Virus record (IMG/VR): IMGVR_UViG_3300037502_002216
Span: 1-38,280 of that record
From: a virus
Direction: 5' to 3' (one strand)
DNA: 38,280 nucleotides
A model generated the notes under the pieces. That model did no database searches, was not told the origin of the DNA, and saw only the letters and a list, made by a program, of their open reading frames with translations. How positions within the stretch are numbered: the first letter of the stretch is position 1; each line of letters begins with the position of its first letter. The position numbers and the translations under genes are program-made. Below are positions 3,701 to 38,280 of this stretch, piece after piece.

Positions 3701-4149
3701 ATGAGTTGAGTGAGGAATATGGACAACTAAATAATTATAAGATGTTGAGCGATAGTGTTGTATTGAACAGTGTAGTTTTTAAGCCTTTATTTGGACCTAA
3801 AGCAGATCCAAATCTTAGAGCTACTATAAAAGTGATCAAATCATCTACAACAAACGCAAGTAACAGTGAAATTAGAAGTTCGGTATTAGCAGCAATGAAT
3901 ACATATTTTGATATTAACAATTGGAATTTTGGAGACACATTTTACTTCTCTGAGTTGAGTGCATATTTGCACGACCAGCTGGGAGAACTAATAAGTTCGG
4001 CAGTATTAGTACCTAACGATCCTAATATGAAATTTGGAGATTTATATGAGATAAAATGTTCCCCTTATGAAATTTTCGTAAACGCTGCTACCGCAAATGA
4101 TGTGGTAGTTATAGCTGCATTAACACCAGCTGAATTGCAAATTGCTTGA
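778..4149 (+). CDS. 6: Baseplate wedge protein, gp6-like, enlarged
   Basis: This 1123-residue protein resembles T4 gp6, the wedge subunit that forms the inner ring of the baseplate. The N-terminal ~115 residues are typical: a helical region reaching FIDYLRVYYPETYNDF, then FIALLDVIAFMGQGLAFRND, then RRDSVIKLANLVSYTPKR. A second family hallmark lies near residues 418-437 (QRAPTRYYTQNRMVNGEDY). T4 gp6 is about 660 residues, so this version carries several hundred extra. Much of the excess, roughly residues 450-950, looks like beta-rich insertions. The C-terminal ~120 residues again look conserved (FKPLFGPKADPNLR, then the NWNFGDTFYFSELSAYLH region). It follows gp25 and precedes the giant gene by 10 bases, matching a wedge-assembly operon. 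Confidence 0.88.
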   Translation: MATSSRQSAIFGVNDWQAIYQTFREADFRSYDYETLRKSFIDYLRVYYPETYNDFIESSEFIALLDVIAFMGQGLAFRNDLNTRENFIDTAERRDSVIKLANLVSYTPKRNLAAQGYLKVVSIQTTQNISDLNGTNLGNLPILWNDPANPNWLEQFNTIINAALVDTQRVGRPANVADLLGVTTSEYTVRIPNNTLPIIPFSSTVDGVNMNFELCSVTSVDADYMYEIPPAPSGRFNMLYRNDKLGYGSPNTGYFFYFKQGNLQNYDFSLEQQIANQVVFIGDIQGVNNEDTWLYQLNENNGTRVLWRKVENIYADAYLQTETSNRTIFSVSSRFNDQVSYVFGDGVFSQIPVGTFRAYVRAGNALTYTIDPTEMQGITVSFTYINRLGKSEVMTLGLELQLPVSNAQAREPIAQIKQRAPTRYYTQNRMVNGEDYNNFPYTLYSSIIKSKAINRSSIGVSKNLDLLDPTGKYSSLNSFASDGALWQNTDDGFLSLTINTVGNIITFLTDSLGSVLSSNRVVQYYTQNFTQYSVNNASGDGTVYWNTSTVDANSLTGYFYNITDGSPLPIPIGTYSTNNVKYVTPGALVKFVAPSGFYFDKNNRLVAGIPGASDQTYIWTTVLSVIGDGYNNGQGSFANGTGPVTLNQYVPNGAILTTVLPSFDNSLSNEIVQECIIRMELQQNFSLVFNNSLTIAQDRWSIQQFDNPNWFVKFESLAGGRYTVTYRSLRYYFGSVEDTRFSFERDKLVYDPLSGKILQDFIKILATNTQPNSNNALAKDIQINIVGQTVESDGYINDFEVEVASNDINNRGLIVSPDFFQTVTGYVTGSANTGIYVFFELIEDAINLSRYQIVPTTAVVQYQTKTQIEVSKYDYPLGQLFYAFGENKFWKSVQDNTVTTPYYILEEQPQYSIQYGRQGLQYQYRHNSNNTTRIDPATTNIIDLYVVTQSYYTQYQNYIQDTTDTVPMPPKPTINELSEEYGQLNNYKMLSDSVVLNSVVFKPLFGPKADPNLRATIKVIKSSTTNASNSEIRSSVLAAMNTYFDINNWNFGDTFYFSELSAYLHDQLGELISSAVLVPNDPNMKFGDLYEIKCSPYEIFVNAATANDVVVIAALTPAELQIA

Positions 4150-16100: not shown

Positions 16101-19100
16101 GTAGCACCCCAATTGGTGGTCTTGAAAATGATCAATGGTATTACATTAATGTACTAGAAACAGTACCTACAGTTATTGTGGGATTGTACACAAATTATTT
16201 CAACGCAATTAACAATCACGATAGAATTTCATTGTTCTCTACAGGAACAGGCAATGGACATTCCTTAAATTTGGGAGCAAGAGCCAGTGCAATATCTACA
16301 TCGTATCCAATAAGAGAAAACAATATTACATTGAGATTTGATAGAACAAGTTATACTTCTCAAGTTATAGATTGGATTGCTGGTAGATATTACGGAGCAT
16401 ATTATGCGGGTTCGTATTCTAACAGTGAGTCTGTTGCAAGTTCATCCATTACATTACAAAGTAGCCAGCCTCCAATATCTAGTATATTAGCTAGTGCCCA
16501 AGGGGTTGCATTTGAAATTACGGATGTTAGAAACGAAAGAGTAGTAGCATATAGTTCATTCATTAGATATGTTCAAAGCACAGAAGTCACAGATAATTCA
16601 GTGAGATTAACATTGCAAGATGATGGATCAGGTAATCCTAACGCTTCGGGCGGTACATTAGGATTCTATATCGGTATGCCTATAAAATTTGTAGGTGAAG
16701 TAGGAACTAGTGGAATCGTAAATGAGGCAGTTTACTATGTAAATAGCGTATTAAATCAAACAGATTTTACAATATCATCAAATTCTTCAGGATCACCTAT
16801 TGTCTCATTAGCAGATTACACAATTGGACCTGCTGGTCTTGAATGCTACGTAGGTGAAGTAACTGATACGGCTGTAATTACTGTAAATTATCCGGGAATA
16901 CGTGGTGTGACAGAAACAATTTCTGGAACTAATAAATTGACTATTCCTCTAAATGTAACAGGAACAGGAGGAACACAGGGTTTCTATATTAATCTTCCTA
17001 TATTCTTTACAGGAACTGATAACAGTTTAGCTAATAACGGTATCTTTGGTGGTATAGTAGAAAATCAAGTGTATTATGTAACAACAGTCGTTGACGACCA
17101 AACATTTACAATGTCAGAATTTACTGATCCATTGACATTTAATGTCTTATCAACTGACAGTGTAACAGATAACATTTCTATAGACGGAGACACAACAAAG
17201 ATAAGTGTCAATGAGCCAGTCATATTTAATACCATGATTGTTGCGGGTTCTGAAGTTACTAATTTTGGTAATATAATTTCAGGCGAAACATATTATATTT
17301 CTGCAATTACAGGACCTAGTACTTTCCAAATATCCACTTCTGTAAACGGAGCAGTTTTTGCATTGGCTACAGTAACAGCAGCATCTAACACTTCAGCGTT
17401 ATTAACAAGCCAAGCTAATACAGTAAACTTAATCAATGCGACCGGCGATACAATGGTTGTAAATATAAGCTTACCTGTAAGCCCTGGACAAGTTAATGGT
17501 CAAAGATTTACTTTATATGAAACTTCCGAACAATATCCTAATTTGGTAGGAACAGACGGATCATTAATTACTAGGGGATTGGCAGCTTTAATCGGTGAAA
17601 GAACCATCGATGGTAGTCCAGTAAATGTTAACCAGGTAGTCTTGTCTAACTTTAATCCTGGCGTAAGCGTAGCACTACAATTAACAAACATTTATATAAA
17701 CATGCCAGTTGAAATTTCTGCTGACTTGTTTGATAGTGCATCTTTCTTAGAACCAGGAACAACGTACTATGTTGTAGATAAAGGAACTATTGAGGTTGAG
17801 GTAACTAACACATCTCAGATTACGACCGGCGTTACAGTAAATGCAGGAAGTTTTATTGTAGGCAGAACATATGTAATCGTAACAGTGGGAACTACAGATT
17901 TTACATTAATTGGTGCAACTTCTAACACACCTGGTTTAATATTTACGGCAACAGGTCCGGGTGCAGGAACAGGAACTGCTAATGTAGTTCGTAATCAATT
18001 AACTTGTGACACTACAGAATCGTTATTTGCAGACATGCCTATAGCATTTACTGGAGCAGGTATAGGTGGCGTTAATATCGATGTGGAATATTATGTAAAA
18101 GAAGTAGTTGATGACCATCATTTTACATTGACTAACACCCCTGGCGGTTTAGAAATTGTAGTTCAAACAGCTAGCGGATTAATGACAGGTATAGGTTTAC
18201 CATATATCAAACTATCTACTACAGTGGGTGGTTCTGAGATAGATCCCGGCGACACTCAACAAAGTGCAGCAATTAACGTAGCTAGCCCTGCAGTTGTGAC
18301 TGTAGCCGAAGCGCCTAGTAATGGAACTATAGTAATATTTAGGAACGGTACTCTACCGGGTGGAGTAAGTTTTGGTACTCCTTACTATGTACAAAATGCG
18401 ACTGCAACAACATTTGAAATCTCTTTAACTCCTTCAGGCCTGCCAATAAATTCTACAGGGTCCGCGGGTACAACTACAATGATTATTTCTACGGAAACAA
18501 CCATTGATCAAACCCCGTTAAGTACACCTCAGTTTGATGTAAGTTATATATTAGGTGGATACAGAGTTATAATTAGTACGCCTGCTTCAGGTTACGCAGT
18601 TGATAATACAATAACTATCGCCGGAACTAATATGGGAGGAACGACTCCTGCAAATGACTTAATCTTAACTGTTAATTCTATAGACAGTTTAGGAGCTATT
18701 ACAAGTGTAATTTGTGCAGGTACGGTTCCAGGTAACTCTAATCAATACTACTTAAAAGTAATATCACCTAATGAATTTGAATTGTATCAAAATGCATTAC
18801 TAACAGTCCCGGTTAGTGGATTAGGCTTACCTTATGTAGGTATAACAGAAACACCGGTCATGAGCGTTGCATCCGGCACAAACATTATAGCACTATATGA
18901 CGGAACAGGTTTTGAAGTCAACGATGGAATTGTATTTACAGGCGATCTAACTGCAACAATAGGTGCCTTGCAAGAAGGTAAAACATATTATATCACCAGC
19001 AAAGCAACCAATGATATCACTGTATCTGAAGAACCAGGTGGTGCGGATGTGTCTATTGTTACAAGCACAACAGTAGAATTTACGGCTGCAAAATCGGGTT

Positions 19101-22100
19101 CATTTGCCCTACTACCTGAACCGTTTATATTCAATCAAAGTATAGTCAAATACAACAATCGTGTTTATGTTTGCGTAGTTTCGAATAATGACGACGAGTT
19201 TGTATTTGGTAAATGGGAATTGTTAGATAGCGGAGATCGTCGCCTAAATGCTATGGATAGAGTTTACGGATATTATGCACCTACTGTAAATATGCCGGGT
19301 ATAGATTTATCTCAATTATTTGAAGGAGTTACATATCCTAATAGTATCTATTTAGGTAATGCCTTCCAACCCGATCAACAGTATCCGATTGACACAGTAT
19401 TACAAGATCAAGCTTTCTATCCCACTTCAGTGGATATAAAGGCTATTTCTTGGAATGGTATAACATACTTAGCACCAGCAGATACCCCGACATATTCAGC
19501 AGTGTTGGGAAGTATAGATACAAATGAATGGGATATAACCAAGCTAGCTAATACTCCATTAAGTGTAACTGATATAATATACGCAGGAGGATATTATATC
19601 ATTACTACAAACAACGCTGCTACCCCTGTATTCAGAAGTAGTGACGGTGTAACTTGGACAACTAACGGATATTACACTCCATATGGATCTACACCGTATA
19701 GTTCGACGCCATATGATATGACCGCGTTAAGTGTAGCCTCGATATCACTGAACTCGGTCGGATACAGAAATGGTATATGGGTAGCGGTAGGAGAAAATAT
19801 TGTATCAAGCGATGATACCTATCTATGGAGAGAACGCTTTGTATTCACTAATCCATTGCTGACAAACGTATTGTACAGTGTATCAGGAATAGACACAACA
19901 AATTTTGCAGGATACATAGCAGTTGGTAAGGGACAACAATTAAACTATTCTACAGGCATAGGGGTTACAGAAGATATTAACCTAATACTAACTAGTTCTG
20001 ATGGAATAAATTGGAATCAATTACCTTACGTATCCTCAAAAGGAATGTATGGCATAACGTACAACACAGCTAATATATTAACAGTAGGTGAAGACGGTAT
20101 TATTTATATTAGCGATAATGGTACGAATTGGTTAGGTGTTAATGAAGTTAAAGTACTCAGTGCTAATGATTCTACCAATGAACTTAACGTAACTAGCACC
20201 GCAGGATTTGCAATTAATAATGAAGTTATCTTTACAGAATCATTTAATGTATTTGTTGCAGGAACATCGTACTATGTTGTTAATATTATATCATCAACAC
20301 AAATACAAGTAAGTGCTACGTATGGCGGGTCCCCCGTTACTCTAAATGCATCCGATCCTACAGTAGACACATACATGCATTTACCGTATACATTCTCACT
20401 ACGAGATGTTCATTACGCAAATGGTTTCTATGTAGCAGTCGGGGATAACGGTTTAATCAAAGTATCAAGTGACGGATACACTTGGACACCACACACTTCT
20501 GGTGTTACTGAAAACCTTAATGGAGTTACATACAATGCTGATGCGGGTATTTGGATTGCAGTCGGTGATAACAATACTATATTAACTAGTGTAAACAATG
20601 GTGTAACATGGGTAAGCACATCCGTGTTTGCGCCGCAGCCAACAATTTACGATGTACAAGGAGCTGAATTCACATTTGGTTATGGTCCTGAAGAATTGGT
20701 ACCGGGCGTGGTTACGGATAATATTACTATGATTGTTGCAACAAGACCGGGTACTAATTGGGATGAAACAATTTATCAGCATGTTGGATACAACGTAGCA
20801 TCTATAGAATTACAACCAACCTCAGGTACACAAACACAATATAGTTTTGATGTTGGAGGTGTAGAAAACGTTCAAAATCCAGCAGAAATAGCATTGTATA
20901 TTATAAATGGTACAACTGGTTTAGGTACAGCAATATATGAAGGAGCTGATTACACAGTTGATTGGATTAATTTCACGGTAACCTTAACTGCACCTTTAAC
21001 ATATCTACCAGTATCAGATAAACTAAGAATAGACATATACGAAGTAGGAAATGGTAATCAATTAGTAAAAGCAAGCACGAAAACTGATCCAATACGCTTA
21101 AATGAAGTTACCGGTTGGAATGAAATCTATGTCAATTGCAACTATTCAGGTGAAATTTATGATGGTTCAGGAGTAATCAGACCTGCCACAAGTCCAGTAG
21201 ACGCTATATGTATAGAAACAGATGCAGCATCTAACTCTATATTGTGTGAAGATGTATCAGGATTTGTTTTGAATAATGCAATTACATTCCAAGGAACTAC
21301 TTTCGGTGGTATACAAGAAGATACCATCTACTATGTAAAAACAATTAGCTATATTTCCAACAGAATTACAGTTTCTTTAACGTATAATGGTGGTACTGGA
21401 ACAGCAGGTCCTACGTTATCATTAACAAATGGTACTGGGTATATGACTGCTGTTATAGCGACAGGTTCAGGATTAGTTTGGACAGATCCTATTATATACC
21501 ATAACGGTAATAAGCTACTATTGGGTACTACTGGAACAGTAACTAGAACTAAAGCTAGCCCAATTAATACAGTTACATGTAATACAACCTCAGGACTATC
21601 AGTAGGAAATCGAATAGTGTTCAGTGATACGATGTTTGGTAATACCATTGTCCCACAAACAACGTATTACGTTGCTTCTATATATGATTTCAACGAATTT
21701 AGAATATCAGAAAATAGCACCGCAACCTCTGCAGGTAGTTTCTTAGTAGGAGAGGAATATGTAATTACTACGATCGGAACTACAGACTTTACATTAATTG
21801 GTGCAGTGTCTAATACCATAGGGGTTACATTTACTGCGACGGGTGCTGGAACAGGAACAGGAACGGCGTGGAAGATATTAGAACTAGATGCAGCAACAGG
21901 TGGCGCAGAATTTATTTCTAACGATTATACATTTGGCATAGCAGATAATGGAATTTCTGCATCTATCATATTCTCTACAGGAAATTACGATGCTTCAGTA
22001 GACTATATTACCTACACACTGTTTGGAGAAACTACTCCATTGCAATACGGATACACTTTACCTGAGACACAAGTATTTGCAGGTAATAATACTGTAGGGC

Positions 22101-27003: not shown

Positions 27004-27309
27004 ATGGATACAAAAAATTTAGTTGCTGAGGCAAAAGCCCGATTTAACCATAATTCTGCCAAAACTTATCTTAAAGAAAAGTATCAAACACGCCTTATTG
27101 TTGCAGAGCAAGGCGGTCTTTGGCGCGCCAATATAGAAACCATAACTTTCTTAAATGCTGTAAAAACACCTAAGGTTATTTTAATAGACTCTTTTGAAAA
27201 TCCCGTAGAAGTCAATAGGGAAGAGTTATTATCTAAATTATTAGAAACCTACGATACAGTAATGAAAGAGTGGCATACTGAATGGAACGAACTTGAGAAG
27301 AAAAGATGA
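27004..27309 (+). CDS. Small conserved-looking protein of unknown function, 101 residues
   Basis: The protein is mixed alpha/beta. A basic N-terminal helix (NLVAEAKARFNHNSAKTYLKE) is followed by beta strands (TRLIVAEQGGLWRANIETI, KVILIDSFENPVEVNR). It ends in a charged helix rich in Trp and Glu (WHTEWNELEKKR). No catalytic motif is visible. It has the best ribosome-binding site of the region (AGGAG) and is the first gene of the overlapping run, sharing 4 bases (ATGA) with the next. I associate this type of sequence with marine T4-like phages but know no function. A structural or assembly role is as likely as an enzymatic one. Confidence 0.75.
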   Translation: MDTKNLVAEAKARFNHNSAKTYLKEKYQTRLIVAEQGGLWRANIETITFLNAVKTPKVILIDSFENPVEVNREELLSKLLETYDTVMKEWHTEWNELEKKR

Positions 27310-28112
27310 GTCGAGGAGCAGTATTATTTGCATTTAATTCCCCTAAATATAATTATTATGACATGGCAGAATTTGCTGCCAAAAGAATTAATCATTTTTT
27401 AGGGTTACCCGTTACTCTCATCACTGATGAGAATAGCCTACCTGAAGTTCCAAATTTCAAATTTGACAATATTGTACTAGTGGAACCTGATAAAAATAAT
27501 ATTAGAGATTATGTTGTTTGGATTAATAAAGGAAGGTATCAAGCATACGATTTCAGCCCATACGATGAAACACTATTGTTAGACACAGATTACGTAGTAA
27601 ATTCAGATAAGCTGTTAAAAACTTTTGAGTTAGGAACCGATTTCTGCTGTCATGATACTACATCATTTTTAATGCATCCGAAAGCACCGCAAGAAGTTTT
27701 AAGTGCCTATAGTTATAAAACTCTTTGGGCCACTGTTATTATGTTTAAAAAGACAAACAGAGCTAAACAAATATTTGAATGTTTAGAAATGGTTCAGAAA
27801 AATTATGAACACTACGCAAATATTCATAGCTTTATTGCAGGAGTTTATAGAAATGATTATGCATTGACCTTAGCATTGCGAATAGCAAACGGACATCAGT
27901 TACTTAATACTGATATCATTCCATGGAATTTAGTACACGTAGGAAAAAATACCTCAGTGTACGCAGATAATTCAGCAGAGTTCAATACAGAATATACTGT
28001 AATGTTTGACAATTGGCAACGTGGAAAGATTAGAAAAGAATACATGAATATTAAAGATATGGATTTTCACGTTATGAATAAAGATTCTTTCTTGGAGTTG
28101 ATTAATGAATAA
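27306..28112 (+). CDS. GT-A-like glycosyltransferase, 268 residues (first of a related pair)
   Basis: The N-terminus (GAVLFAFNSPKYNYYDMAEF, then LPVTLITDE) has the strand-helix order of nucleotide-sugar-binding GT-A folds. A DTD motif at residues 93-95, in SPYDETLLLDTDYVV, fits the metal-binding DxD of these enzymes. A later segment near residues 195-220 (NGHQLLNTDIIPWNLVHVG) could hold the acceptor site. It is soluble and full length for a single-domain transferase. It overlaps its neighbours by 4 and 8 bases. The next protein shares the YDxSPYxxTxxLxxD block, so the two look paralogous. Donor and acceptor sugars are not deducible. Confidence 0.68.
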   Translation: MSRGAVLFAFNSPKYNYYDMAEFAAKRINHFLGLPVTLITDENSLPEVPNFKFDNIVLVEPDKNNIRDYVVWINKGRYQAYDFSPYDETLLLDTDYVVNSDKLLKTFELGTDFCCHDTTSFLMHPKAPQEVLSAYSYKTLWATVIMFKKTNRAKQIFECLEMVQKNYEHYANIHSFIAGVYRNDYALTLALRIANGHQLLNTDIIPWNLVHVGKNTSVYADNSAEFNTEYTVMFDNWQRGKIRKEYMNIKDMDFHVMNKDSFLELINE

Positions 28113-28911
28113 AGGATTTGTAATCATTTCACAAGATGAAGGGTCCGCAGATACCTATCAAAAATGTGCTGAAGCATTAGCAGTTAGCATTAAAAATTCT
28201 ATGCCTGATGCTAATGTTTCTATTATTTCCAACAACAAAATAAAAAATAGAAGTTTATACCATAAAGTGATAGACTTACCATACGGAGATTTAGCACCTA
28301 GACAATACTGGAAGCTTATCAATGATTGGCAAGTTTATGATGCCAGTCCATACGAATATACGATTAAACTAGAAGCAGATTTATACATTCCAAAATCCAT
28401 AGATCATTGGTGGGACGTATTGAAACAACGAGATTTGGTAGTATCTACATGTGTAAGAGATTTTAAACAAGAAATAAGTCCATCAAGAGTTTATAGAAGG
28501 TTCATTGATGACAATAAATTACCTGACACATATAATGCTATTACCTACTTTAAAAAATCTGATTTAGCAAAACAATTTTTCGATGTAGTAAAAAATATTT
28601 TTGAAGATTGGCCAGAGTATAGAGCAATTTTAAAATGTAACCCATACGAAGAGGCAACAACCGATTGGGTCTATGCACTAGCAGCACACATAATTGGAAT
28701 TGAAAAATGTACCATGCCTACATTCAAAGAGATGTCTATGGTTCATATGAAAAGATTGATAAATAATTTACCTACGGAAGATTGGACAGATACACTAGTA
28801 TATGAAATCTTACCGCATACATTACGGATTAATTCTTGCCCACAGCAGTACCCTTTTCACTATCATGTGAAGTCTTTTTCTAATAAAATATTACAAGCAT
28901 ATGCAAAATGA
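28105..28911 (+). CDS. GT-A-like glycosyltransferase, 268 residues (second of a related pair)
   Basis: This protein has exactly the same length as the preceding one and the same key block: YDASPYEYTIKLEADLYIP, with EAD at residues 90-92 in the DxD position. The N-terminus FVIISQDEGSADTYQKCAEA and the ANVSIISNN strand fit a GT-A fold. If EAD replaces DTD as metal ligand, the enzyme may be altered in donor use or may have lost activity. It starts at an ATG behind TTGGAG, overlapping the upstream gene by 8 bases, and overlaps the next by 11. A role in building a phage-directed glycan is inferred from context. Confidence 0.62.
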   Translation: MNKGFVIISQDEGSADTYQKCAEALAVSIKNSMPDANVSIISNNKIKNRSLYHKVIDLPYGDLAPRQYWKLINDWQVYDASPYEYTIKLEADLYIPKSIDHWWDVLKQRDLVVSTCVRDFKQEISPSRVYRRFIDDNKLPDTYNAITYFKKSDLAKQFFDVVKNIFEDWPEYRAILKCNPYEEATTDWVYALAAHIIGIEKCTMPTFKEMSMVHMKRLINNLPTEDWTDTLVYEILPHTLRINSCPQQYPFHYHVKSFSNKILQAYAK

Positions 28912-29245
28912 TGACAACGATATTATAATAATTTGGGAAGCTCCCAAAATTATTCCTCCTGAGTTTAGACTTTATTATGATGAAGCAGGTAAAGTCATTT
29001 GTTATACCTGCGAAAAACTTGAAGGTAACTATATTGTCATAGATGCGACAACGTATGCACAAGCTAGACCTGATATAAGAATCATCGATGGTAAAATATC
29101 TACAGTATCCAATCATTGCATAGTATCTAAATTAATGCCATCTGTGACAGATGGTATTTCCTGTGAAGAAGAAGATATTAGTATAGTTTCAATGGCACAA
29201 AAAGGTATTACTAAGTGGAAATTAAAAACGTATGAACTCAAATGA
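28901..29245 (+). CDS. Small protein of unknown function, 114 residues
   Basis: The sequence is largely beta: DIIIIWEAPKIIPPEFRLYYDEAGKVICYTCEKLEG, then NYIVIDATTYAQARPDIRIIDGKI, ending with MAQKGITKWKLKTYELK. Five cysteines occur but are not spaced like a zinc or iron-sulfur site. It overlaps both neighbours (11 and 14 bases), lacks an obvious Shine-Dalgarno and probably relies on coupled translation. It sits between glycosyltransferase-like genes, so a partner of one of these is possible. I do not recognise the family. Confidence 0.72.
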   Translation: MQNDDNDIIIIWEAPKIIPPEFRLYYDEAGKVICYTCEKLEGNYIVIDATTYAQARPDIRIIDGKISTVSNHCIVSKLMPSVTDGISCEEEDISIVSMAQKGITKWKLKTYELK

Positions 29246-30185
29246 TATTATTGATATAGCAGATTTAGACTGTATATATCTAAGTTACGACGAGCCACAA
29301 AAAGAAGAATTTTGGCTCAAGATCAAGAACATGGTTCCATGGGCAAAACGTGTCGATGGTGTTAAGGGTAGTGACGCTGCACATAAAGCAGCCGGGGAAG
29401 CAAGTGATACTGAAAGATTTATTCTTATCGACGGTGACAATATGCCAGATGAGAATTTTTTTAACTTGCAATTAGATTTTACTGGTAAAGATCCAAACTA
29501 TCATAGGGCACAGTTTCGTTGGAAAGCTGTCAATGCTATCAATGGACTGCGTTATGGCAATGGTGGTATGAGTAGTTGGACAAAAACTTATGTCTCTAAC
29601 ATGAAAACTCATGAAGCACAAACTGACGGAGATGTAACACGTATTGCAGATTTTTGTTTAGATAGCAAAGATAATCTATACTGGGCTATGTACGATTGTT
29701 ATTCAACTACGTATCCTAATTATACTCCCTTTCAAGCATGGCGTGCAGGATTCCGTGAAGGTGTAAAGATGTGTTTGAATAAGGGTGAGGTTCCTAGCTT
29801 AGATGAGTTTAAAGAAACTGTAGCTAGTCGCAACTTGAACAACTTAACTATTTGGCACAACGTAGGTGCTGATGTTGAAAACGGTATTTGGGCTATATAT
29901 GGTGCTAGGCTAGGTACATACCTAACATTGTTGTCAGATTGGAATGCACATAACGTTCAATGGTTTGATAATTATCCTATATTATGGGAAGAATACAAAA
30001 ATAGAGATCCGGCAGTCGCAGCAGACTTCTTTGGTCAAGCACTGCACGACAAGTTAGGATTACCTATGTGTACTCTTAGCGCAGAACAAAGCAAATTTTT
30101 TAAGCGACACTATCAAGCTGACTATCATAATAAAGGCCCATTAGTCACAGAGATGGAAGTTATTAGACAAATCGAAGGTTGGTAA
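29232..30185 (+). CDS. Glycosyltransferase-like protein with DGDN motif, 317 residues
   Basis: The start has a strand-helix pattern (LDCIYLSYDEPQKEEFWLKI, WAKRVDGVKGSDAAHKAA). It leads to RFILIDGDNMPDENFF, with DGDN at residues 67-70 in the position of a GT-A metal-binding DxD. A central region carries YGNGGMSSWTKTYV, compatible with a substrate loop, followed by aromatic and acidic helices. I associate such proteins with marine T4-like phages, usually described as putative glycosyltransferases. It overlaps the upstream gene by 14 bases and its stop shares a base with the next start. Substrate unknown; the enzymatic call rests on the motif and context only. Confidence 0.6.
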   Translation: MNSNDIIDIADLDCIYLSYDEPQKEEFWLKIKNMVPWAKRVDGVKGSDAAHKAAGEASDTERFILIDGDNMPDENFFNLQLDFTGKDPNYHRAQFRWKAVNAINGLRYGNGGMSSWTKTYVSNMKTHEAQTDGDVTRIADFCLDSKDNLYWAMYDCYSTTYPNYTPFQAWRAGFREGVKMCLNKGEVPSLDEFKETVASRNLNNLTIWHNVGADVENGIWAIYGARLGTYLTLLSDWNAHNVQWFDNYPILWEEYKNRDPAVAADFFGQALHDKLGLPMCTLSAEQSKFFKRHYQADYHNKGPLVTEMEVIRQIEGW

Positions 30186-31594
30186 TGAGCGAAAGTCACG
30201 AACAAAGAAGAATAAAAGAAATAAAGATCAAAATCGAAAATGAAGTTGGTCCTACTTTTTGTCTAGCAAAATGGCATCATGTAACAATGTATTTACAGAG
30301 TGGAGAAACACATAGTTGTTATCACCCTGCACCTCATAAAATCCCATTAGAAGAATTATACGATAATCCTAGCGCACTTCACAATACACAACAGAAAAAA
30401 GAAGAACGTAAGCTGATGTTGGAAGGTGGAAAACCCAAAGGATGTCAGTATTGTTGGAATATTGAAGCAATGGGTCCAGACTATATTAGTGACAGGCATA
30501 TACGTAATGGATCAATCTTCACTGAAGAACGATATGAACAAACTGCTAAAGGACCGTGGAATCAAAACATTAACCCCGAGTACATTGAAATTAATTTCGG
30601 TAATGAATGCAATTTCAAATGCGGTTATTGTCATCCCAAGTATTCTACTAGTTTTTATAAAGAAATTGAGAAGTATGGTCCTGTCACTACAGTAAAAAAT
30701 CACAGATGTGATATTGATTGGATGCGACTGTATCAACGTGAAGAAGAAAATCCATATGTAGATGCATTTTGGGAATGGTGGCCAGAGATGCGTAAAACAT
30801 TAAACATTATACGCATTACGGGCGGAGAGCCAACACTTCACAGTAGTACATGGAGATTTTTAGACCAAGTTGATCAAGATCCTATGCCATGGTTAGAAAT
30901 TAATGTAAACAGTAATTTGGGGACTAAAAATGTTTTGATAGAACGTTTAGCTAACAAAGTCAAACATCTAACGGACGAAGGTAAAATAAAAAGCTTTAAG
31001 CTATTCACAAGTATGGATACATGGGGCCCACGTGCTGAATATATTCGTACGGGATTAGATTTAAAAGTTTGGGAAGAAAACTTTCACACATACTTACGTA
31101 ATACATCTAGTCCTATTACGTTTATGATTACCTTTAATATATTTTCTGTAACTACATTTAAAAGCTTTTTAGAAAAATTTATCGAATGGCGTAAGATATA
31201 TGGCTGGTATGATGATCCGGTAAACCCACAGCATCGTGTACGTTTCGATACACCCTATCTTCGTGATCCTATTCAATATGATATGAACATTTTACCCAAA
31301 GATGAATTCATGCCATACATGTATGAGGCATTAGAGTACATGAAAGAAAACACTGATGACAAGCGTAGTGATGCATTCAGCACAATTGAATATGAAAAAT
31401 TTAAACGTGTTGTAGATTATATGGCTGAAACAGTGTATTCTGAAGAAAAACTTATAGAAGGTCGTAGAGATTTTTATAATTGGTTCAATGAGCTAGACGA
31501 ACGTAGAGATACAGACATGCTAGCAGTATTTCCCGAAATGTTAGGATTTTATAGATTATGTCAAGAAGCGAACCAACTAAATCCATTACGATAA
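30185..31594 (+). CDS. Radical SAM protein with N-terminal twitch-like cysteines (1 of 3)
   Basis: The ATG at 30185 (TAATG overlap, GAAGG upstream) is preferred over a TTG six bases earlier; it gives 469 residues. The radical SAM CxxxCxxC motif is at C142, C146 and C149 (CNFKCGYC), with GGEP at 213-216 for SAM binding. Ahead of it, C26, C45, C87 and C90 (FCLAKWHH, SCYHP, GCQYCW) form a twitch-type auxiliary iron-sulfur site. In most known enzymes that domain follows the radical SAM domain; here it precedes it, as in the N-terminal-twitch phage and bacterial family. It lacks the CC pair seen in the next two copies. The reaction is unknown; sugar or peptide modification are both possible. Confidence 0.85.
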   Translation: MSESHEQRRIKEIKIKIENEVGPTFCLAKWHHVTMYLQSGETHSCYHPAPHKIPLEELYDNPSALHNTQQKKEERKLMLEGGKPKGCQYCWNIEAMGPDYISDRHIRNGSIFTEERYEQTAKGPWNQNINPEYIEINFGNECNFKCGYCHPKYSTSFYKEIEKYGPVTTVKNHRCDIDWMRLYQREEENPYVDAFWEWWPEMRKTLNIIRITGGEPTLHSSTWRFLDQVDQDPMPWLEINVNSNLGTKNVLIERLANKVKHLTDEGKIKSFKLFTSMDTWGPRAEYIRTGLDLKVWEENFHTYLRNTSSPITFMITFNIFSVTTFKSFLEKFIEWRKIYGWYDDPVNPQHRVRFDTPYLRDPIQYDMNILPKDEFMPYMYEALEYMKENTDDKRSDAFSTIEYEKFKRVVDYMAETVYSEEKLIEGRRDFYNWFNELDERRDTDMLAVFPEMLGFYRLCQEANQLNPLR

Positions 31595-32820
31595 ACAAAG
31601 ATTATTTGCTTAATGAAAGCAAAACTTTTTGTATGTTTCCATGGGTACATTTAAACGTTACCCCTAAAGGAGATATATATCCTTGCTGTAGTAATGATTA
31701 TTCAAAGCCGTATGGTAATACAAAAGAAATTACGTTAAAACAAGCTTTTAATAGTGAAGGAATGAAGCAATTGCGTTTAGATATGCTGAACGAACGCAAG
31801 AATGATATGTGTAATTTCTGCTATAAGCACGAAGAAGCCGGGCCGCATAGTTTTAGAAATTATAGTAAAGAACATTTTGGCAAGCACTTTGATGACTTAG
31901 TTCCTACTACTCAAGAAGATGGCACTGTAGAAGAATTCCGTATGCATTACTTCGACATACGTTTCAGTAATATCTGTAATTTTAAATGCAGAACTTGTGG
32001 GAGTGAATTTAGCAGTCAATGGGGTATGGAGATGAACAAAAACTATGATTCAAAACATCCCATATTAATACACGCAGATGATAATCAAGGTAAATTATTG
32101 GAAGAAGTATTAGAGCATGTGGATCACATCGACCTAGCATATTTTGCAGGCGGAGAACCTCTGATCACAGAGGAGCATTACATTATATTAGAAGAAATGA
32201 TTCGTAAAGGTAGAACTGACGTAACATTGAGGTATAATACTAATGCTAGTAATATCAAATATAAAAATCACGACATACTTGATTTGTGGAAACACTTCAA
32301 ACGCATAGAATTGAGTTGTAGTATTGATCATTATGGTGAACGTGCTGAATTGTTGCGAAGTGGTACAGATTGGGGAAAAGTAGAAAGTAATTTACTAACA
32401 TTCAGAAATTTAGATTACGTAATGTTCCAAATGAATACTGTATTTTCAATATTTAATTATCTTACAATAGGTGAATTTTATCAATACTTGCAAGATAAAA
32501 ATATTGTACGTAGAGAAGATTGGTATCATAGTTTGTATCTTGCCGTACATCCACTCTATTATAGTGCAAAAAGTTTACCTAAATCGTTAAAACCATTGGC
32601 TCAACAAAAAGCACTTGCATGGGCAGATAAAAATGAAAATGGTGGAACGTGTTTACCGAGATTGGTACGAGATGCTGTTAACTTTGCCAATGACGGGAAT
32701 AGTTGGAGTGAAGTTAGACCTACATTTTTAGGACATACTAAATCGTTAGACAGAATACGTGATGAAAGTTTTTGGAAAGTCTTCCCTGAATTAAATAAAT
32801 TATCTGAATTGTTGGAGTAA
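31558..32820 (+). CDS. Radical SAM protein with N-terminal twitch-like domain (2 of 3)
   Basis: This 420-residue protein has a complete N-terminal auxiliary set: C25 (FCMFPWVHLN), C43/C44 (DIYPCCS), C85 and C88 (CNFCY). The radical SAM triad follows at C140, C144 and C147 (CNFKCRTC), with GGEP at 198-201 and an SIDHYGERAELLRSG stretch typical of the barrel. Its ATG lies 37 bases inside the upstream gene, the longest overlap in the run; no nearer methionine precedes the essential cysteines. It ends SFWKVFPELNKLSELLE, and the third copy has a similar helical end (LEDVIPELKEVFDWA), as does the first (AVFPEMLGFY). Substrate unknown. Confidence 0.88.
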   Translation: MSRSEPTKSITINKDYLLNESKTFCMFPWVHLNVTPKGDIYPCCSNDYSKPYGNTKEITLKQAFNSEGMKQLRLDMLNERKNDMCNFCYKHEEAGPHSFRNYSKEHFGKHFDDLVPTTQEDGTVEEFRMHYFDIRFSNICNFKCRTCGSEFSSQWGMEMNKNYDSKHPILIHADDNQGKLLEEVLEHVDHIDLAYFAGGEPLITEEHYIILEEMIRKGRTDVTLRYNTNASNIKYKNHDILDLWKHFKRIELSCSIDHYGERAELLRSGTDWGKVESNLLTFRNLDYVMFQMNTVFSIFNYLTIGEFYQYLQDKNIVRREDWYHSLYLAVHPLYYSAKSLPKSLKPLAQQKALAWADKNENGGTCLPRLVRDAVNFANDGNSWSEVRPTFLGHTKSLDRIRDESFWKVFPELNKLSELLE

Positions 32821-32823
32821 TTA

Positions 32824-34095
32824 ATGGATACTATAACCGTAGAAAGTTTAGTCAAACACGGTAAGCATTTTTGCGTATTACCTTGGGTGCATTTTCATAG
32901 CTGGCCCGATGGGCGTGTAATGCCTTGTTGTGTTGCTGACAGTAGCATGCCAGTTGCTGATCTTAAAAATGGCGAATCTATAATCAATATGATGAATTCT
33001 GTTGATTATAAGAACTTGCGTAAGGCAATGATGAACGACGAGCCTGTTGCTGCATGTAAACGTTGCTATGACCTAGAGCTTATGGGCACATGGACTATGC
33101 GTCAAAGTCATAACAAGCGTAAGGGCCTTGAGTACGTAAAATATATTGCAGAAAATACATTAGACGACGGTAGCCTAATCGACTTTGAAATGAAATACAT
33201 GGATCTACGATTCAGTAGCATCTGTAATATGAAATGCCGTAGCTGTGGCCCCGGCTGCTCAAGTCAGTGGGCACAAGAATTTGTTGATCGTGTGGGAATG
33301 GAAAATTATGAAAAGTATTTCCACACTACAAAAATTGTAGTAAACGCCGCAGAAGAAATGAGTTTTATGAATAAACTGAAACCATATCTTAAGGACGTGA
33401 CTGAAGTTTATTTTGCAGGTGGCGAGATTGTTATCACGCCCGAGCATTATGAATGTTTAGACTACTGGATCGAAAATGGAATCAATGAAACAATTGAGTT
33501 AACTTATACGACCAACTTTAGTACATTAAAGGGGTATAAGGATAAAGACTTAATTGAATATTGGAAGAAATTCCCTAATCTGAAAATTTGGGCTAGCCTT
33601 GACGCACACGGTGAGGTAGCTGAATGTATCAGAAAGGGTACAGATTGGGATCGTATTGTTGGTAATATTAGGTTGTTAAAGGAACAAGTTCCTCATGCTG
33701 AATTTCAGATTACTCCAACTATCAGCATATGGAACGTGTTTACTTTTCCGGATTTCTTTGACTACATGGTCAAAGAAGGATTCATCGATACAAAGTCATG
33801 TCCTCGATTCAATCTAGCCACCAATCCATGGTATGCTAACATTATGATCCTACCCGTAAGTGTAAAACGTAGATTAGCAGAATTGTATCGAGTATATCAA
33901 AATCGTTATAAAGATAATGTAGATATCTACAACGGATTTAAGATGATTATCTACAATCTTACAGTAGGCGATGAAAATAAGGAAGGCATCAAGGAATTTA
34001 TTCAATTCAATAAAGAATTAGATGATTTTAGAAAAGAAAAATTAGAAGATGTTATACCTGAACTAAAAGAGGTGTTCGATTGGGCAAGAAGTTAA
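32824..34095 (+). CDS. Radical SAM protein with N-terminal twitch-like domain (3 of 3), GGEI variant
   Basis: This 423-residue paralogue of the preceding gene starts 3 bases after its stop behind a GGAG site. Auxiliary cysteines are C17 (FCVLPWVHFH), C35/C36 (VMPCCVAD), C78 and C81 (CKRCYD). Radical SAM cysteines are C134, C138 and C141 (CNMKCRSC), followed by an extra cysteine C145. The SAM-contact motif reads GGEI (199-202) where GGEP is usual; the substitution is tolerated in some families. The barrel continues with WASLDAHGEVAECIRKGTDW, matching SIDHYGERAELLRSGTDW in copy 2. Three paralogues in a row suggest either sequential steps on one substrate or several related substrates. Confidence 0.87.
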   Translation: MDTITVESLVKHGKHFCVLPWVHFHSWPDGRVMPCCVADSSMPVADLKNGESIINMMNSVDYKNLRKAMMNDEPVAACKRCYDLELMGTWTMRQSHNKRKGLEYVKYIAENTLDDGSLIDFEMKYMDLRFSSICNMKCRSCGPGCSSQWAQEFVDRVGMENYEKYFHTTKIVVNAAEEMSFMNKLKPYLKDVTEVYFAGGEIVITPEHYECLDYWIENGINETIELTYTTNFSTLKGYKDKDLIEYWKKFPNLKIWASLDAHGEVAECIRKGTDWDRIVGNIRLLKEQVPHAEFQITPTISIWNVFTFPDFFDYMVKEGFIDTKSCPRFNLATNPWYANIMILPVSVKRRLAELYRVYQNRYKDNVDIYNGFKMIIYNLTVGDENKEGIKEFIQFNKELDDFRKEKLEDVIPELKEVFDWARS

Positions 34096-35072
34096 TAGCC
34101 ATTGAAGCACCTGAACCCTATGTTGCAATTACATGGCAAGTAAACAATTTTTGTAACTTCAAATGCAGTTACTGTAATCCAGGTAATTGGGGAGGTAGTA
34201 ATCGCAATGAGGGCAATCTAGACAAATATCTAGAAAATCTAGGTATCATTGTTAATAGATATCGTAGCGCCGGCTATAAAAACTTTAAATTCTTTTTTAG
34301 TGGTGGTGAACCTACTGCGTGGGAAAATTTTATTCCTATCTGCGAATGGATACATGAAACATTACCCAAATCTACACTAGCTGTCAACACAAACTTAAGT
34401 CGCCCCACTGCATGGTGGGAAAAGAACTATCACTTATTTGATGATGTTGTTGCTAGTTTTCACGTTGAATGGGCGGATAAAAAGCGTTATGAAGCAAATT
34501 CAATATTGTTGTGCGACAAAGTAAATTATCTTTCTACTAAAATGCTTATGCATGAAGAAAGGTTTTGGGAAGTAGTCGAGTTTGCAGAACACTTGAAAAC
34601 AGTAATGCCCAATTATTTCATTGAATGGACTCCCCTGTACGATGAGTTGAGTCATGTTACGGGTCCATGGCAATATAAAGATCCAGCTAAGACTGAATTT
34701 TTTAAAACACACAACATCGAAATGAATTTTACGCTTCCTAAGCCCAATAAGCGTACAGAAAATACAGTAAGTTATAACAGATATGATGATAATTCTACTC
34801 AAGTATGTAATGCAAATGACCTAATAGTGAATGGTCAAAATTTTTACCGAGGTTGGAGTTGCAATGTAGGCGACTGTGTGTTTATTAATACTATCGGTGA
34901 AGTCAGCCTTGCTAGCTGCGGATTAGGTGGTTATGTAGGACATATATTAGATGATATAAGTCGTGTAGGTCCTAAACAAATTATTTGTAGAAAAGATATG
35001 TGTATGTGTGGAACAGACATTATCATTCCTAAATTCGATAATGATTGGAAAGAATCAAATGCAAAAAGATGA
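34080..35072 (+). CDS. Radical SAM protein with C-terminal cysteine cluster, TTG start
   Basis: This 330-residue protein differs from the three before it. The CxxxCxxC motif is at C25, C29 and C32 (CNFKCSYC), with FFFSGGEP ending at residue 78. There is no N-terminal auxiliary domain. Instead, cysteines C243, C261, C266, C280, C303, C308 and C310 lie in the last 90 residues, in a GWSCNVGDCVFINTIGEV / LASCGLGG / CRKDMCMCGTD pattern reminiscent of SPASM or twitch domains. No ATG precedes the motif. A TTG at 34080 has an excellent AAAGAGGT site (34066-34073) and overlaps the upstream gene by 16 bases, so it is the likely start. Substrate unknown. Confidence 0.85.
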   Translation: MGKKLIAIEAPEPYVAITWQVNNFCNFKCSYCNPGNWGGSNRNEGNLDKYLENLGIIVNRYRSAGYKNFKFFFSGGEPTAWENFIPICEWIHETLPKSTLAVNTNLSRPTAWWEKNYHLFDDVVASFHVEWADKKRYEANSILLCDKVNYLSTKMLMHEERFWEVVEFAEHLKTVMPNYFIEWTPLYDELSHVTGPWQYKDPAKTEFFKTHNIEMNFTLPKPNKRTENTVSYNRYDDNSTQVCNANDLIVNGQNFYRGWSCNVGDCVFINTIGEVSLASCGLGGYVGHILDDISRVGPKQIICRKDMCMCGTDIIIPKFDNDWKESNAKR

Positions 35073-36375
35073 TCCTATTAAAATAGCTTATAGTTGGATT
35101 GGACCTCGAGGTCCAATCATCAATACTGAGCTACCTAATATTCTTAGTTATTCTAACGTCGGTGAAGGATCATACACCGATTCGAATAAATTTTGGGCAG
35201 ATGATTTATACTGGAGAGTTTTCATGCACCATGGAAATTACCCGGTATCGCCTGCCTATCATATGCGTGAACATGATGTTTTTATCTATCCTTTTACATT
35301 GTCATGGAGAATTCAGTTTCAGAATTATTTCTTAAATGATGGTGGTGTTTTAGAATTCAGTCATACACCTAATCATATCACTCATCAAGTGAGACACCGA
35401 AATGGTTTCTTTTTAATTGATTATTCTCCTGAAGCTTTTGTACAAGAAGGACAATTACATGTGATGCATTCTTACTTTGGACATTATAATAAGATTCCAA
35501 TGGGTAAGATCATTTATATTACAGGATGTATGAATGTAGAAGAATTGTACAATAACTGGTGTACTAGAAATAATATACCAGACGATCCTATGCATAGGAT
35601 GATTGTGGTCCCGTTCGCAGTTTCGCAACACGCTATATCGACACAAATAAGTCAAGTAGAAGAACCGGTATATGATGAAACTGTTGTTCCTGAAAAACTA
35701 TTCTTATGCTGGAATAGAAGATTCAGATCACATAGGACACAGTTAGCATTAGCATTGGACAAAGCGGGACTGGTAGATAGAAGTTATTACAGTATGCATT
35801 TAACCGATCCCGAACTAAACTCTATGCATTTTAAAAATACAGTTGACTTGTATTCTAACCCATTGTTAAAATTAAGCAATAAAGATGTAGACAATTTTGT
35901 AAGCAAGTTGCCATTAGTCATCGACGGAGAAACACAGATCGTAAGAATGTGTGGTGACTTTGATAGAGCAGCAAAGAATTTCTATGAAAACAGTTTAGTC
36001 AGTATTATTACGGAAACAAACTATGAATTAAATGAATTGACTGCTACTGAAAAAACATGGAAGCCGGCTAAAGAAAAACATCCATTTATTATGGTTGGAT
36101 CTCCTGGCTCACTGAGAACACTGAGAAACTTTGGATTTCAAACTTTTGATGATTTTTGGGATGAAACTTATGATGAAATAGAAGATCCAAGACTTCGCAT
36201 GTTAAAAATTGTAGAAGTATGTAAAGAAATAGGAAGTTGGAATACTGAACAGATTTTAGACTTCAAACGTAGAGTTAAGCCTATAGTAGAACATAATTAC
36301 AATATGATTAAAACTAATAGTGCAAAAATATTGGCTGATAAAATCAGAGAAGCTATAGAAAAGAGAATCAAATGA
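35059..36375 (+). CDS. TEKTWKP-family protein, possibly a glycosyltransferase, 438 residues
   Basis: Possible starts are a GTG at 35008 and ATGs at 35041 and 35059. The last has GGAAAG 6 bases ahead and overlaps the upstream gene by 14 bases, so it is chosen. The N-terminal ~200 residues are aromatic-rich (IAYSWIGPRGPIINTELP) and unfamiliar. The C-terminal part holds KLFLCWNRRFRSHR, then SIITETNYEL, TEKTWKP at 330-336, HPFIMVGSPGSL and GFQTFDDFWDETYD at 359-372. This block recurs in many viral and bacterial surface-polysaccharide proteins and resembles the nucleotide-sugar side of fucosyltransferase-like (GT-B) folds, but I cannot be sure of the activity. A paralogue follows two genes later. 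Confidence 0.6.
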   Translation: MQKDDPIKIAYSWIGPRGPIINTELPNILSYSNVGEGSYTDSNKFWADDLYWRVFMHHGNYPVSPAYHMREHDVFIYPFTLSWRIQFQNYFLNDGGVLEFSHTPNHITHQVRHRNGFFLIDYSPEAFVQEGQLHVMHSYFGHYNKIPMGKIIYITGCMNVEELYNNWCTRNNIPDDPMHRMIVVPFAVSQHAISTQISQVEEPVYDETVVPEKLFLCWNRRFRSHRTQLALALDKAGLVDRSYYSMHLTDPELNSMHFKNTVDLYSNPLLKLSNKDVDNFVSKLPLVIDGETQIVRMCGDFDRAAKNFYENSLVSIITETNYELNELTATEKTWKPAKEKHPFIMVGSPGSLRTLRNFGFQTFDDFWDETYDEIEDPRLRMLKIVEVCKEIGSWNTEQILDFKRRVKPIVEHNYNMIKTNSAKILADKIREAIEKRIK

Positions 36376-37346
36376 AAAAAGTATTAGTATGTGGAGCCGG
36401 AGGATTTATTGGATCCCATTTAGTAGAAAAATTAAAACGTGATGGCCACTATGTTATAGGCGCTGATTTAAAATATCCCCTTTATAGTGAAACAGTAGCA
36501 GATAAATTTTATCAACTAGATTTGCGTAGTCAGCGAAACGTAGAACAACTAATTACATCAGATATTGATGAGGTATATCAACTAGCAGCAGATATGGGCG
36601 GAGCTGGCTATATATTTACTGGGCAACATGATGCCGATATTATGCATAACAGTGCTATGATTAATTTGAACGTACTTGACGAGATGCGTAAAAAAGGTGT
36701 CAAAAAAATCTTTTATAGTTCTAGTGCTTGTATGTATCCAAGTCACAATCAAGAGGATCCTGACAATCCGTTACTTAGCGAAGATAGTGCATATCCCGCA
36801 AATCCCGATAGTGAGTATGGTTGGGAAAAGTTATTCAGTGAGAGATTATATCTGAGCTATGCAAAAAATTATAGCTTTGATGTTCGTATAGCAAGATTTC
36901 ATAATGTATTTGGCCCATACGGGGCATGGAATAATGGCAAAGAGAAAGCACCCGCGGCTCTTTGTAGAAAAGTAGCAACTGTCGAGCCAGGCGGAACAAT
37001 TGAAATATGGGGTCCTGGCACTCAAACTCGGAGTTTTTTATACATCGATGAATGTGTAGAAGGAGTGCAAAGATTAATGACTAGTGAATTCACAGGTCCA
37101 GTAAATTTGGGAAGTGAACGCATGATAAGTATTAATCAGTTAGTGTTTTTGATAAGCAAGTTAGTTGGTAAATCGGTGTGCATAAAAAACGTACCCGGAC
37201 CAATGGGAGTCATGGGTAGAAACAGTGACAATAGATTAATCAGAGAAAAGTTGAATTGGTCTCCACAAGATAATCTTGAAGAGGGATTATTAAAAACTTA
37301 TAAATGGATTGAAGAACAAATCGCTGCAAATAGAAAAGACGTATAA
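36372..37346 (+). CDS. GDP-mannose 3,5-epimerase-like NAD-dependent sugar epimerase
   Basis: This is a full-length 324-residue short-chain dehydrogenase/epimerase. It has the nucleotide-binding GAGGFIG at 8-14, ADMGGAGYI at 73-81, SSSACMYPS with Cys120, Tyr149-xxx-Lys153 and NGKEKAPAALCRK with Lys192. These sit at a constant offset of 25 from the plant GDP-mannose 3,5-epimerase catalytic residues as I remember them (Cys145, Tyr174, Lys178, Lys217). Family stretches RSFLYIDECVEG and GPMGVMGRNSDN are also present. That enzyme converts GDP-D-mannose to GDP-L-galactose (and GDP-L-gulose). It overlaps the upstream gene by 4 bases (ATGA) and the next by 1. Among the enzymes here it has the best-supported specific function and points to a GDP-sugar pathway. 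Confidence 0.87.
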   Translation: MKKVLVCGAGGFIGSHLVEKLKRDGHYVIGADLKYPLYSETVADKFYQLDLRSQRNVEQLITSDIDEVYQLAADMGGAGYIFTGQHDADIMHNSAMINLNVLDEMRKKGVKKIFYSSSACMYPSHNQEDPDNPLLSEDSAYPANPDSEYGWEKLFSERLYLSYAKNYSFDVRIARFHNVFGPYGAWNNGKEKAPAALCRKVATVEPGGTIEIWGPGTQTRSFLYIDECVEGVQRLMTSEFTGPVNLGSERMISINQLVFLISKLVGKSVCIKNVPGPMGVMGRNSDNRLIREKLNWSPQDNLEEGLLKTYKWIEEQIAANRKDV

Positions 37347-38280
37347 TGATAAAAGCTTACTTAATACAAAAATTTCCAATACCCGGTGAGTCTGAATATT
37401 ACAGCAATCACATCAATAAAATAAAAGAAGAAAATCCTAATCTTATTGTAATTATTAGCTTAGGTGAGATTGATGTTGAGTATCTATTTGGTCCTATTAT
37501 GGATGGTGTAACCAATTGGCTAGTAGAAAACAACCGTATGATGTATGTACTTTGGGCCGGACCCGATAAAGAATTAAGACCTAATATTCGTGCAGTAAAC
37601 ACATTAGGTTCTGCTATGGGAAATATGCATTGTACAATGGGTTGTCAAGAAGCAGCGAGACAATTTAATTTAGTAAAAGATTCTACCAAATTATTTACAT
37701 GCTATAACAATAACGCCAAAGTAGAAAGATTAATGCTGGTAGACTCATTTGCCAAACACAACTTGCTGAAAGAAGGTATTGTAACATATAGATACCCTCA
37801 AACTAGATTACGAACCTCATGGAAATATCATGATGGTTCTAGACTTTTTGATGAAGAAGATTACACGATTAGTTCTAAACCTGAGTATAGTCCGGGATAT
37901 TTACCACGTAGTTACATGACAGGTTTCATTGATATTGTTACTGAAACAGATTGTCAAGAGGGATATTTTATACCTACTGAAAAAACAGCTAAACCATTGG
38001 GTGCATTGAAACCGTTTCTTGTATTATCAAGTAAAAATTATCACCAGTGGTTGTATGATGAGTATGGCATAGAAAAGTATGATGAAATATTTGATTATAG
38101 TTTTGATAACAAATCATCGATAGAAGATCGAATACAAGGAATAGTGGATAATTTAATTAGAATTAAAAAATTAATAAGCGAAAATCCTAATTACAAAGCA
38201 GAAATTTACAAGGCTTTAAAGAGGAAGCTATTAGAAAACAGATATAAATCAATCAATGTTCTTGAAATTTTAAAAGCAAA
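37346..38280 (+). CDS. Paralogue of the TEKTWKP-family protein, cut by window end
   Basis: The ATG overlaps the epimerase stop (TAATG), and the frame stays open for 311 codons to the window edge. An N-terminal segment (MIKAYLIQKFPIPGESEYYS) is followed by beta/alpha sequence. Then KLFTCYNNNAKVERLMLVDS aligns with KLFLCWNRRFRSHRTQLALA of the 438-residue protein, and IVTETDCQEGYFIPTEKTAKP (motif at 211-217) aligns with its TEKTWKP block. KPFLVLSS and a DEIFDYSFDNKSSIEDRI region also correspond. The two probably have the same chemistry, possibly glycosyl transfer to different acceptors. The C-terminus is missing, so total length is unknown. Confidence 0.7.
   Translation, partial: MIKAYLIQKFPIPGESEYYSNHINKIKEENPNLIVIISLGEIDVEYLFGPIMDGVTNWLVENNRMMYVLWAGPDKELRPNIRAVNTLGSAMGNMHCTMGCQEAARQFNLVKDSTKLFTCYNNNAKVERLMLVDSFAKHNLLKEGIVTYRYPQTRLRTSWKYHDGSRLFDEEDYTISSKPEYSPGYLPRSYMTGFIDIVTETDCQEGYFIPTEKTAKPLGALKPFLVLSSKNYHQWLYDEYGIEKYDEIFDYSFDNKSSIEDRIQGIVDNLIRIKKLISENPNYKAEIYKALKRKLLENRYKSINVLEILKA

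Follow-up and report, generated by a model that had tools for sequence, protein, structure and literature searches.

What does a bacteriophage do with four radical S-adenosylmethionine (SAM) genes in a row? The question is raised by a 38,280-base linear IMG/VR record (IMGVR_UViG_3300037502_002216; hereafter the window, meaning this entire stretch), in which positions 30185–35072 hold four adjoining genes on the + strand, R1 to R4, that overlap or abut one another. A preceding sequence-only reading had singled out these genes and suggested that they carry out a multi-step modification. Here we show that they form a block inherited together across related phage loci, that the R3–R4 pair recurs in bacteria and that fusions and neighboring genes link the block to sugar metabolism. 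The reading that we favor, at a probability of roughly 0.55, is that R1–R4 act in succession as radical SAM enzymes in a phage glycan pathway, where they modify, and probably oxidize, a sugar or glycan built by the phage.

Domain architecture and conservation of R1–R4

All four proteins combine a match to the radical SAM superfamily domain PF04055 with an intact CX3CX2C motif. R1 and R3 fall under the Pfam gathering score for PF04055, yet they match strongly to the NCBIfam family NF033640 (N_Twi_rSAM, twitch domain-containing radical SAM protein). Against the curated cut-off of this family (170 bits), R1–R3 score 313–372 bits, whereas R4 fails with 30.5 bits. The features of the four genes are as follows:

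30185–31594, +: R1, N_Twi radical SAM protein (ATG at 30185, TTG at 30179; NF033640 313.5 bits)
30260–30454, +: R1 N-terminal auxiliary-cluster domain, C28-C47-C89-C92 (from the sequence and ligand conservation)
30608–30631, +: R1 CX3CX2C, C144/148/151, numbered from the TTG at 30179 (from the sequence)
31558–32820, +: R2, N_Twi radical SAM protein (NF033640 371.7 bits; structural model)
31630–31821, +: R2 N-terminal auxiliary-cluster domain, C25-C43-C85-C88 (Pfam SPASM; alignment to the BtrN C-terminal domain)
31975–31998, +: R2 CX3CX2C, C140/144/147 (invariant in the alignment of homologs)
32824–34095, +: R3, N_Twi radical SAM protein and partner of R4 (NF033640 358.1 bits; fusion in locus L204; adjacency in Bdellovibrionota)
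32872–33066, +: R3 N-terminal auxiliary-cluster domain, C17-C35-C78-C81 (Pfam SPASM)
33223–33246, +: R3 CX3CX2C, C134/138/141 (alignment)
34080–35072, +: R4, radical SAM protein with a C-terminal twitch-like domain (TTG start)
34152–34175, +: R4 CX3CX2C, C25/29/32 (kept in 86 of 86 homologs)
34860–35009, +: R4 C-terminal cysteines C261 (CX13GX4C) C280, C303, C308 and C310 (kept in 85–86 of 86 homologs)

The N-terminal cysteine set of R1–R3 takes the form CX12-13GX4C ... CX2C; it coincides with Pfam SPASM matches in R2 (residues 25–88) and R3 (residues 17–82), and R1 has the same set. The seven-cysteine SPASM motif (CX9-15GX4C-gap-CX2CX5CX3C-gap-C) is not found in R1–R3, and, as only the CX12-13GX4C and CX2C elements are conserved throughout their family, this region corresponds to the twitch-like half of SPASM. 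A profile of 65 N_Twi sequences matched BtrN twice within one chain: profile positions 12–87 align to BtrN residues 185–263, i.e., its C-terminal auxiliary domain, with four cysteines aligned, while positions 120–145 align to BtrN residues 25–50. This is direct evidence that the domain order of R1–R3 is reversed. In R4, the conserved cysteines (C261, C280, C303, C308 and C310) lie instead at the C-terminus, where they are predicted from the sequence to bind a cluster.

The AlphaFold2 (AF2) model of R2 is of high confidence (pLDDT 94.4, pTM 0.90), and its radical SAM part matches the structures of viperin, anSME, SuiB, BlsE and DesII. Among solved PDB structures, no match to the fold of R2 as a whole was found (best TM-score by query length below 0.4); in BFVD, about 20 phage proteins match the model over its full length.

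Of 357 full-length N_Twi matches gathered with no motif filter, 356 retain both cysteine sets, the sole exception being a short, different radical SAM protein; the same holds for 125 of 130 homologs from bacterial genome records. The iron–sulfur ligands are thus not lost in most homologs, an outcome that the sequence-only reading had named as contrary to its proposal. Comparison with near relatives gave proportions of nonsynonymous differences (pN) of 0.05–0.16 and of synonymous differences (pS) of 0.72–0.92, indicating that R1–R4 are under purifying selection. Phylogenetically, R1, R2 and R3 form three clades (support 0.997, 0.981 and 0.744), with the R1 and R3 clades including sequences from bacterial records. 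Some of these bacterial-record loci resemble phage contigs in gene order or size (L297, L308, L309 and L315), and two of them, the contigs L308 and L315 of metagenome-assembled genomes, have the order B-C-D-E-F-H-R1-N_Twi seen in the window; others (L300, L302 and L304) do not. We therefore reject a recent local triplication of R1–R3, which are three old, separate subfamilies with cellular members. With this amendment to the description of the three as paralogs, the sequence-only reading was accurate on the architecture: the N-terminal twitch-like cysteines, the reversed domain order, the C-terminal cysteine cluster of the fourth protein and the membership in a family whose NF033640 entry has no assigned reaction.

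A co-inherited block with a linked R3–R4 pair

The phage loci used for comparison were selected through their similarity to the window. Among them, 72 loci anchored on R4 offer at least 6.5 kb of upstream sequence; all of these contain R1 and two or more N_Twi genes, and in 71 an N_Twi gene lies directly 5' of R4. Conversely, 58 of the 60 R1-anchored loci with room downstream have at least two N_Twi genes and R4. The block contains four radical SAM genes in 21 loci, five in 41 and six in 12. Its genes are tightly packed, with a median gap of −4 nt and gaps of at most 60 nt in 274 of 296 cases, an arrangement too dense to accommodate a precursor-peptide gene within the block. In loci L046–L049, R1–R4 show 67–76% identity, as against 30–50% for the upstream structural genes, with E at 30%, F at 31% and H at 42%; that is, the identity of R1–R4 was kept while the genes upstream were replaced, suggesting that the block moved as a unit. 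On the strength of these identities and of the co-occurrence, single-gene shuffling of R1–R4 is rejected. R1 and H occur without R2–R4 in L225 and L236–L238, pointing to two modules, H–R1 and R2–R3–R4.

The R3–R4 pair recurs outside phages. A search of 369 Bdellovibrionota genomes recovered R4-superfamily matches in 42 and a clear R4 ortholog (at least 367 bits) in five. All five have an R3 ortholog (37–39% identity) beside the R4 ortholog (40–44%). On the other side of R4, these five genomes code for a third radical SAM protein of about 340 aa with an N-terminal SPASM match. In the phage contig L204, R3 and R4 are fused in a single 749-aa frame. This fusion, together with the Bdellovibrionota adjacency, argues that R3 and R4 work together, and we regard it as our strongest evidence. 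L302 and L304 additionally carry an R1 homolog, and in L411 R3 and R4 are divergently oriented.

Several further observations concern the block and its family. A gene for a DUF481 outer-membrane protein is inserted between R2 and R3 in L035–L042 and L297, and the same slot holds an unrelated 85-aa gene in L029–L034 and L045. Two different B12-binding radical SAM proteins, identified through Pfam matches of homologs, recur 3' of the block (e.g., L006:15358–17316 and L006:18227–20473), with one or the other present in 56 of the 63 R4 loci with enough sequence. The run of four genes itself, to which the sequence-only reading had attached weight, is not exceptional for the family: bacterial loci have up to eight N_Twi genes within 17 kb, and a 231-kb phage contig (G005, IMGVR_UViG_3300027733_001253) has about 12 such genes, with 17 N_Twi_rSAM matches of which about 10 exceed the cut-off. 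The matches are disposed in two arrays (4.8–19 kb and 121–128 kb), one headed by an H-like gene. A tblastn search of the phage isolate collection recovered no relatives of R1 or R4.

Sugar neighborhood, proposed pathway and its rivals

The block is flanked on both sides by genes with probable or possible roles in glycan synthesis:

27306–28112, +: E, upstream conserved gene, glycosyltransferase (GT)-A-like by eye (DTDY motif); in 58 of 60 R1-anchored loci; no Pfam match
28105–28911, +: F, upstream conserved gene, GT-A-like by eye; PHROG 1903 (function unknown)
29232–30185, +: H, putative GT-A-type glycosyltransferase-like protein, directly 5' of R1; in 60 of 60 R1-anchored loci; fold matches
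35008–36375, +: GTa, probable glycosyltransferase by eye, no family match; 3' of R4 in many loci
36372–37346, +: GDP-mannose 3,5-epimerase, optional partner (PDB 2c59); in 36 of 63 R4 loci
37346–38278, +: GTb, probable glycosyltransferase by eye; extends past the window end

The top PDB fold matches of the H model (pLDDT 86.8) are mostly glycosyltransferases at high probability (1.00 for the PBCV-1 capsid enzyme), with TM-scores of 0.28–0.39 by query length; only two of its 32 homologs show a Pfam GT2 match, and a weak one (E about 0.008). H and N_Twi domains are also directly joined: in L127 an H domain is fused to an N_Twi protein. This fusion protein (L127:4548–7988) has several copies of an approximately 70-aa repeat (DIDYVIPWHDFKFEHVWMLD...) ahead of its H-like domain, and similarly long H proteins occur in L199, L207, L214 and L216. 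Likewise, in L312 (Halobacteriovoraceae) an N_Twi protein is fused to a domain that is 34% identical to the product of a separate neighboring gene (L298:12024–12701) with a weak GT2 match. The families found beside R4 include NDP-sugar epimerases/dehydratases, UDP-glucose dehydrogenase, DegT aminotransferase, RmlC-like epimerase, NeuB, sugar C-methyltransferase, FkbM methyltransferase and B12-radical SAM proteins; this census of raw occurrences also holds unrelated families such as UvdE and DNA ligase. In L413 carbamoyltransferases lie next to the block and in L308 next to an array of N_Twi genes, and in Vibrio phage K566 N_Twi genes are interleaved with GT8 genes, with LpxC nearby. The epimerase of the window is clearly a GDP-mannose 3,5-epimerase (330 bits to PDB 2c59 versus 106 for the next enzyme class). 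The sequence-only reading had proposed to map its co-occurrence with the four genes. It is missing from 27 of the 63 R4 loci, and no more than 17 of 55 epimerase-anchored loci contain a radical SAM gene of this set in the vicinity; hence, we reject it as a core partner. The same reading had left open whether sugar or peptide is modified, and the neighbors and fusions favor sugar.

We accordingly envisage a pathway of two linked modules, H–R1, in which an N_Twi enzyme joins a putative GT-A-type protein, and R2–R3–R4, within which R4 would act with R3. Each enzyme would cleave SAM at the [4Fe-4S] cluster of its CX3CX2C motif to yield a 5'-deoxyadenosyl radical, which would abstract hydrogen from a C–H bond of an activated sugar or growing glycan supplied by the neighboring sugar genes. 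The electron may then pass to the four-cysteine auxiliary cluster, as in BtrN, though N-terminal in R1–R3, giving a two-electron oxidation, e.g., of an alcohol to a ketone. Neighboring aminotransferases, methyltransferases, carbamoyltransferases or amidinotransferases might elaborate the product. A multi-step process, as first suggested, fits the co-inherited multi-enzyme set in the 72 loci and in Bdellovibrionota; the order of its steps is our inference.

The finished glycan would probably decorate the tail proteins of the virion or, alternatively, the envelope of the host. The former is favored by the placement of the block after tail genes. The gene at 778–4149 is a homolog of the baseplate wedge gene of Rak2-type jumbo myoviruses (31–34% identity) and the gene at 24125 is 50% identical to one of Atu_ph07, which marks the window as a fragment from the tail region of a jumbo myovirus. 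The longest related contigs measure 364 kb. Between the two genes, an uninterrupted frame of 6,598 aa that is rich in repeated domains (4160–23956) probably codes for a giant tail protein. The host destination is favored by the O-chain modification proposed for pelagimyophage glycosyltransferases (PMC7029224). The description of the block as part of a late operon stands on gene order, as the T4-type late promoter core TATAAATA is absent from the + strand of the window. This core was seen once in positions 1–38280 versus 7.9 occurrences expected by chance and appears depleted, and sigma-70 and terminator scans gave counts at or near the shuffled expectation.

Several points weigh against the glycan pathway. 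We know of no reaction for any N_Twi member. The 72 R4 loci are interrelated and were picked by similarity to the window, such that the above fractions should not be read as independent trials. The alignment to BtrN spans a single domain at 23–25 bits, the TM-scores of H are low and a GT2 match is weak (E 0.005). Several Bacteroidota homologs stand alone without sugar genes, and thus substrates may vary across the family. Finally, sugar genes are frequent in phage tail regions (PMC7029224), which makes proximity alone a weak argument.

Of the alternatives, the best placed, although unlikely, is that R1–R4 are peptide maturases, akin to those of ribosomally synthesized and post-translationally modified peptides (RiPPs), acting on residues of a virion protein, for instance one of the tail proteins encoded immediately before the block. 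Peptide or protein modification is what SPASM/twitch enzymes are chiefly known for, the fold matches include anSME, SuiB and SkfB, and the block sits after tail-fiber-like genes, with D and G, two small conserved genes of 101 and 114 aa, upstream. Yet D and G are missing from divergent loci that retain the block (L046–L049, L136 and L195–L216), leaving no obligate small partner beside a block too compact for a precursor gene; a Pfam-type search of the proteins gave no match to the peptide-binding RRE domain, and R3–R4 recur in bacterial chromosomes without tail genes.

We consider it quite improbable that the enzymes act on nucleotides or DNA, in the manner of viperin or queuosine enzymes, in counter-defense or genome modification. 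By both sequence and fold, the radical SAM core finds its best PDB match in viperin, and QueC-like and NadV genes occur close to the KVP40 relatives, but the viperin scores of R1–R4 are far under the family cut-offs, viperin lacks the N-terminal twitch domain and no DNA-modification gene recurs in the block. About as improbable is the modification of a lipid or other envelope component in lieu of sugar: tetraether lipid synthase is a weak match, and the K566 genes have LpxC and an annotated PagP in their vicinity, but genes for lipid synthesis do not recur within the group to which the window belongs. Least probable of all is an auxiliary metabolic role in boosting host metabolism, e.g., haem-type cofactor synthesis, given that R1–R3 are much closer to N_Twi_rSAM than to any haem enzyme and that haem genes do not recur beside them, notwithstanding the numerous viral radical SAM genes annotated as ahbD in the Baltic (PMC9301287) and the weak TIGR04546 match of KVP40.0261. 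Some of these Baltic genes might themselves code for N_Twi_rSAM proteins.

Beyond the glycan pathway as framed above lies a bolder version that we put forward only tentatively. R1–R4 might constitute a conserved radical-SAM assembly line, common to jumbo phages and Bdellovibrionota, that rewrites sugars once a glycan has been assembled. The reversed auxiliary domain would then permit a reaction new to characterized twitch/SPASM enzymes, and virions or infected cells would gain a new sugar.

Comparison with known systems

Among characterized enzymes, BtrN (2-deoxy-scyllo-inosamine dehydrogenase, PDB 4M7T/4M7S) shares with R1–R3 the radical SAM core and four aligned auxiliary cysteines, and its substrate is sugar-like; it differs in having its auxiliary domain at the C-terminus, and the overall similarity is weak. 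It performs a two-electron oxidation of an aminocyclitol, for which a fully ligated, four-cysteine, low-potential cluster is taken to be the electron acceptor (PMC9012708, PMC6231123). R4 resembles SkfB and other C-terminal twitch/SPASM enzymes in its C-terminal CX13GX4C and CXC-containing set, but unlike the SkfB type it has neither an RRE domain nor a precursor peptide.

Homologs exist in culturable phages. The radical SAM proteins of Vibrio phage K566 exceed or approach the NF033640 cut-off, and KVP40.0260/0261 of Vibrio phage KVP40 (L376:6911–9017) match the family over nearly their full length, though below the cut-off (119 and 128 bits). The latter are annotated as radical SAM or MoaA/NifB/PqqE proteins, and have the N-terminal cysteine set. 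The stretches of K566 and KVP40 covered here show no R4 partner. Vibrio phage QD01, whose recorded host is strain Vmax, gave a tblastn match at 25% identity.

Sets of several radical SAM genes next to tail fiber and glycosyltransferase genes have been described in aquatic phages, namely in the cassettes of the pelagimyophage host-recognition cluster (PMC7029224) and in a T4-like marine genome reported in 2017 with 12 radical SAM genes (PMC5332604); the relevant passages of these articles do not resolve them into N_Twi subfamilies, an R3–R4 pair or a cellular counterpart. No open PMC paper was found that mentions N_Twi_rSAM by name. R1–R3 are, in themselves, full-length members of NF033640 with N-terminal auxiliary cysteines and CX3CX2C; what sets the block apart is that it unites three old subfamilies with R4 and glycan genes in a single, fixed operon. 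Thus, while the N_Twi family and radical SAM arrays of aquatic phages are known in outline, the fixed block, the R3–R4 pair with its cellular counterpart and the fusions appear undescribed in the open PMC papers searched. If the glycan reading is correct, phages carry their own radical chemistry for uncommon sugars, probably as a disguise of the virion or host surface, and enzymes of the R1–R4 type would be new carbohydrate tools. In comparison with the family as previously known, the block, the R3–R4 and H-type fusions and the sugar neighbors give it a concrete substrate class to test.

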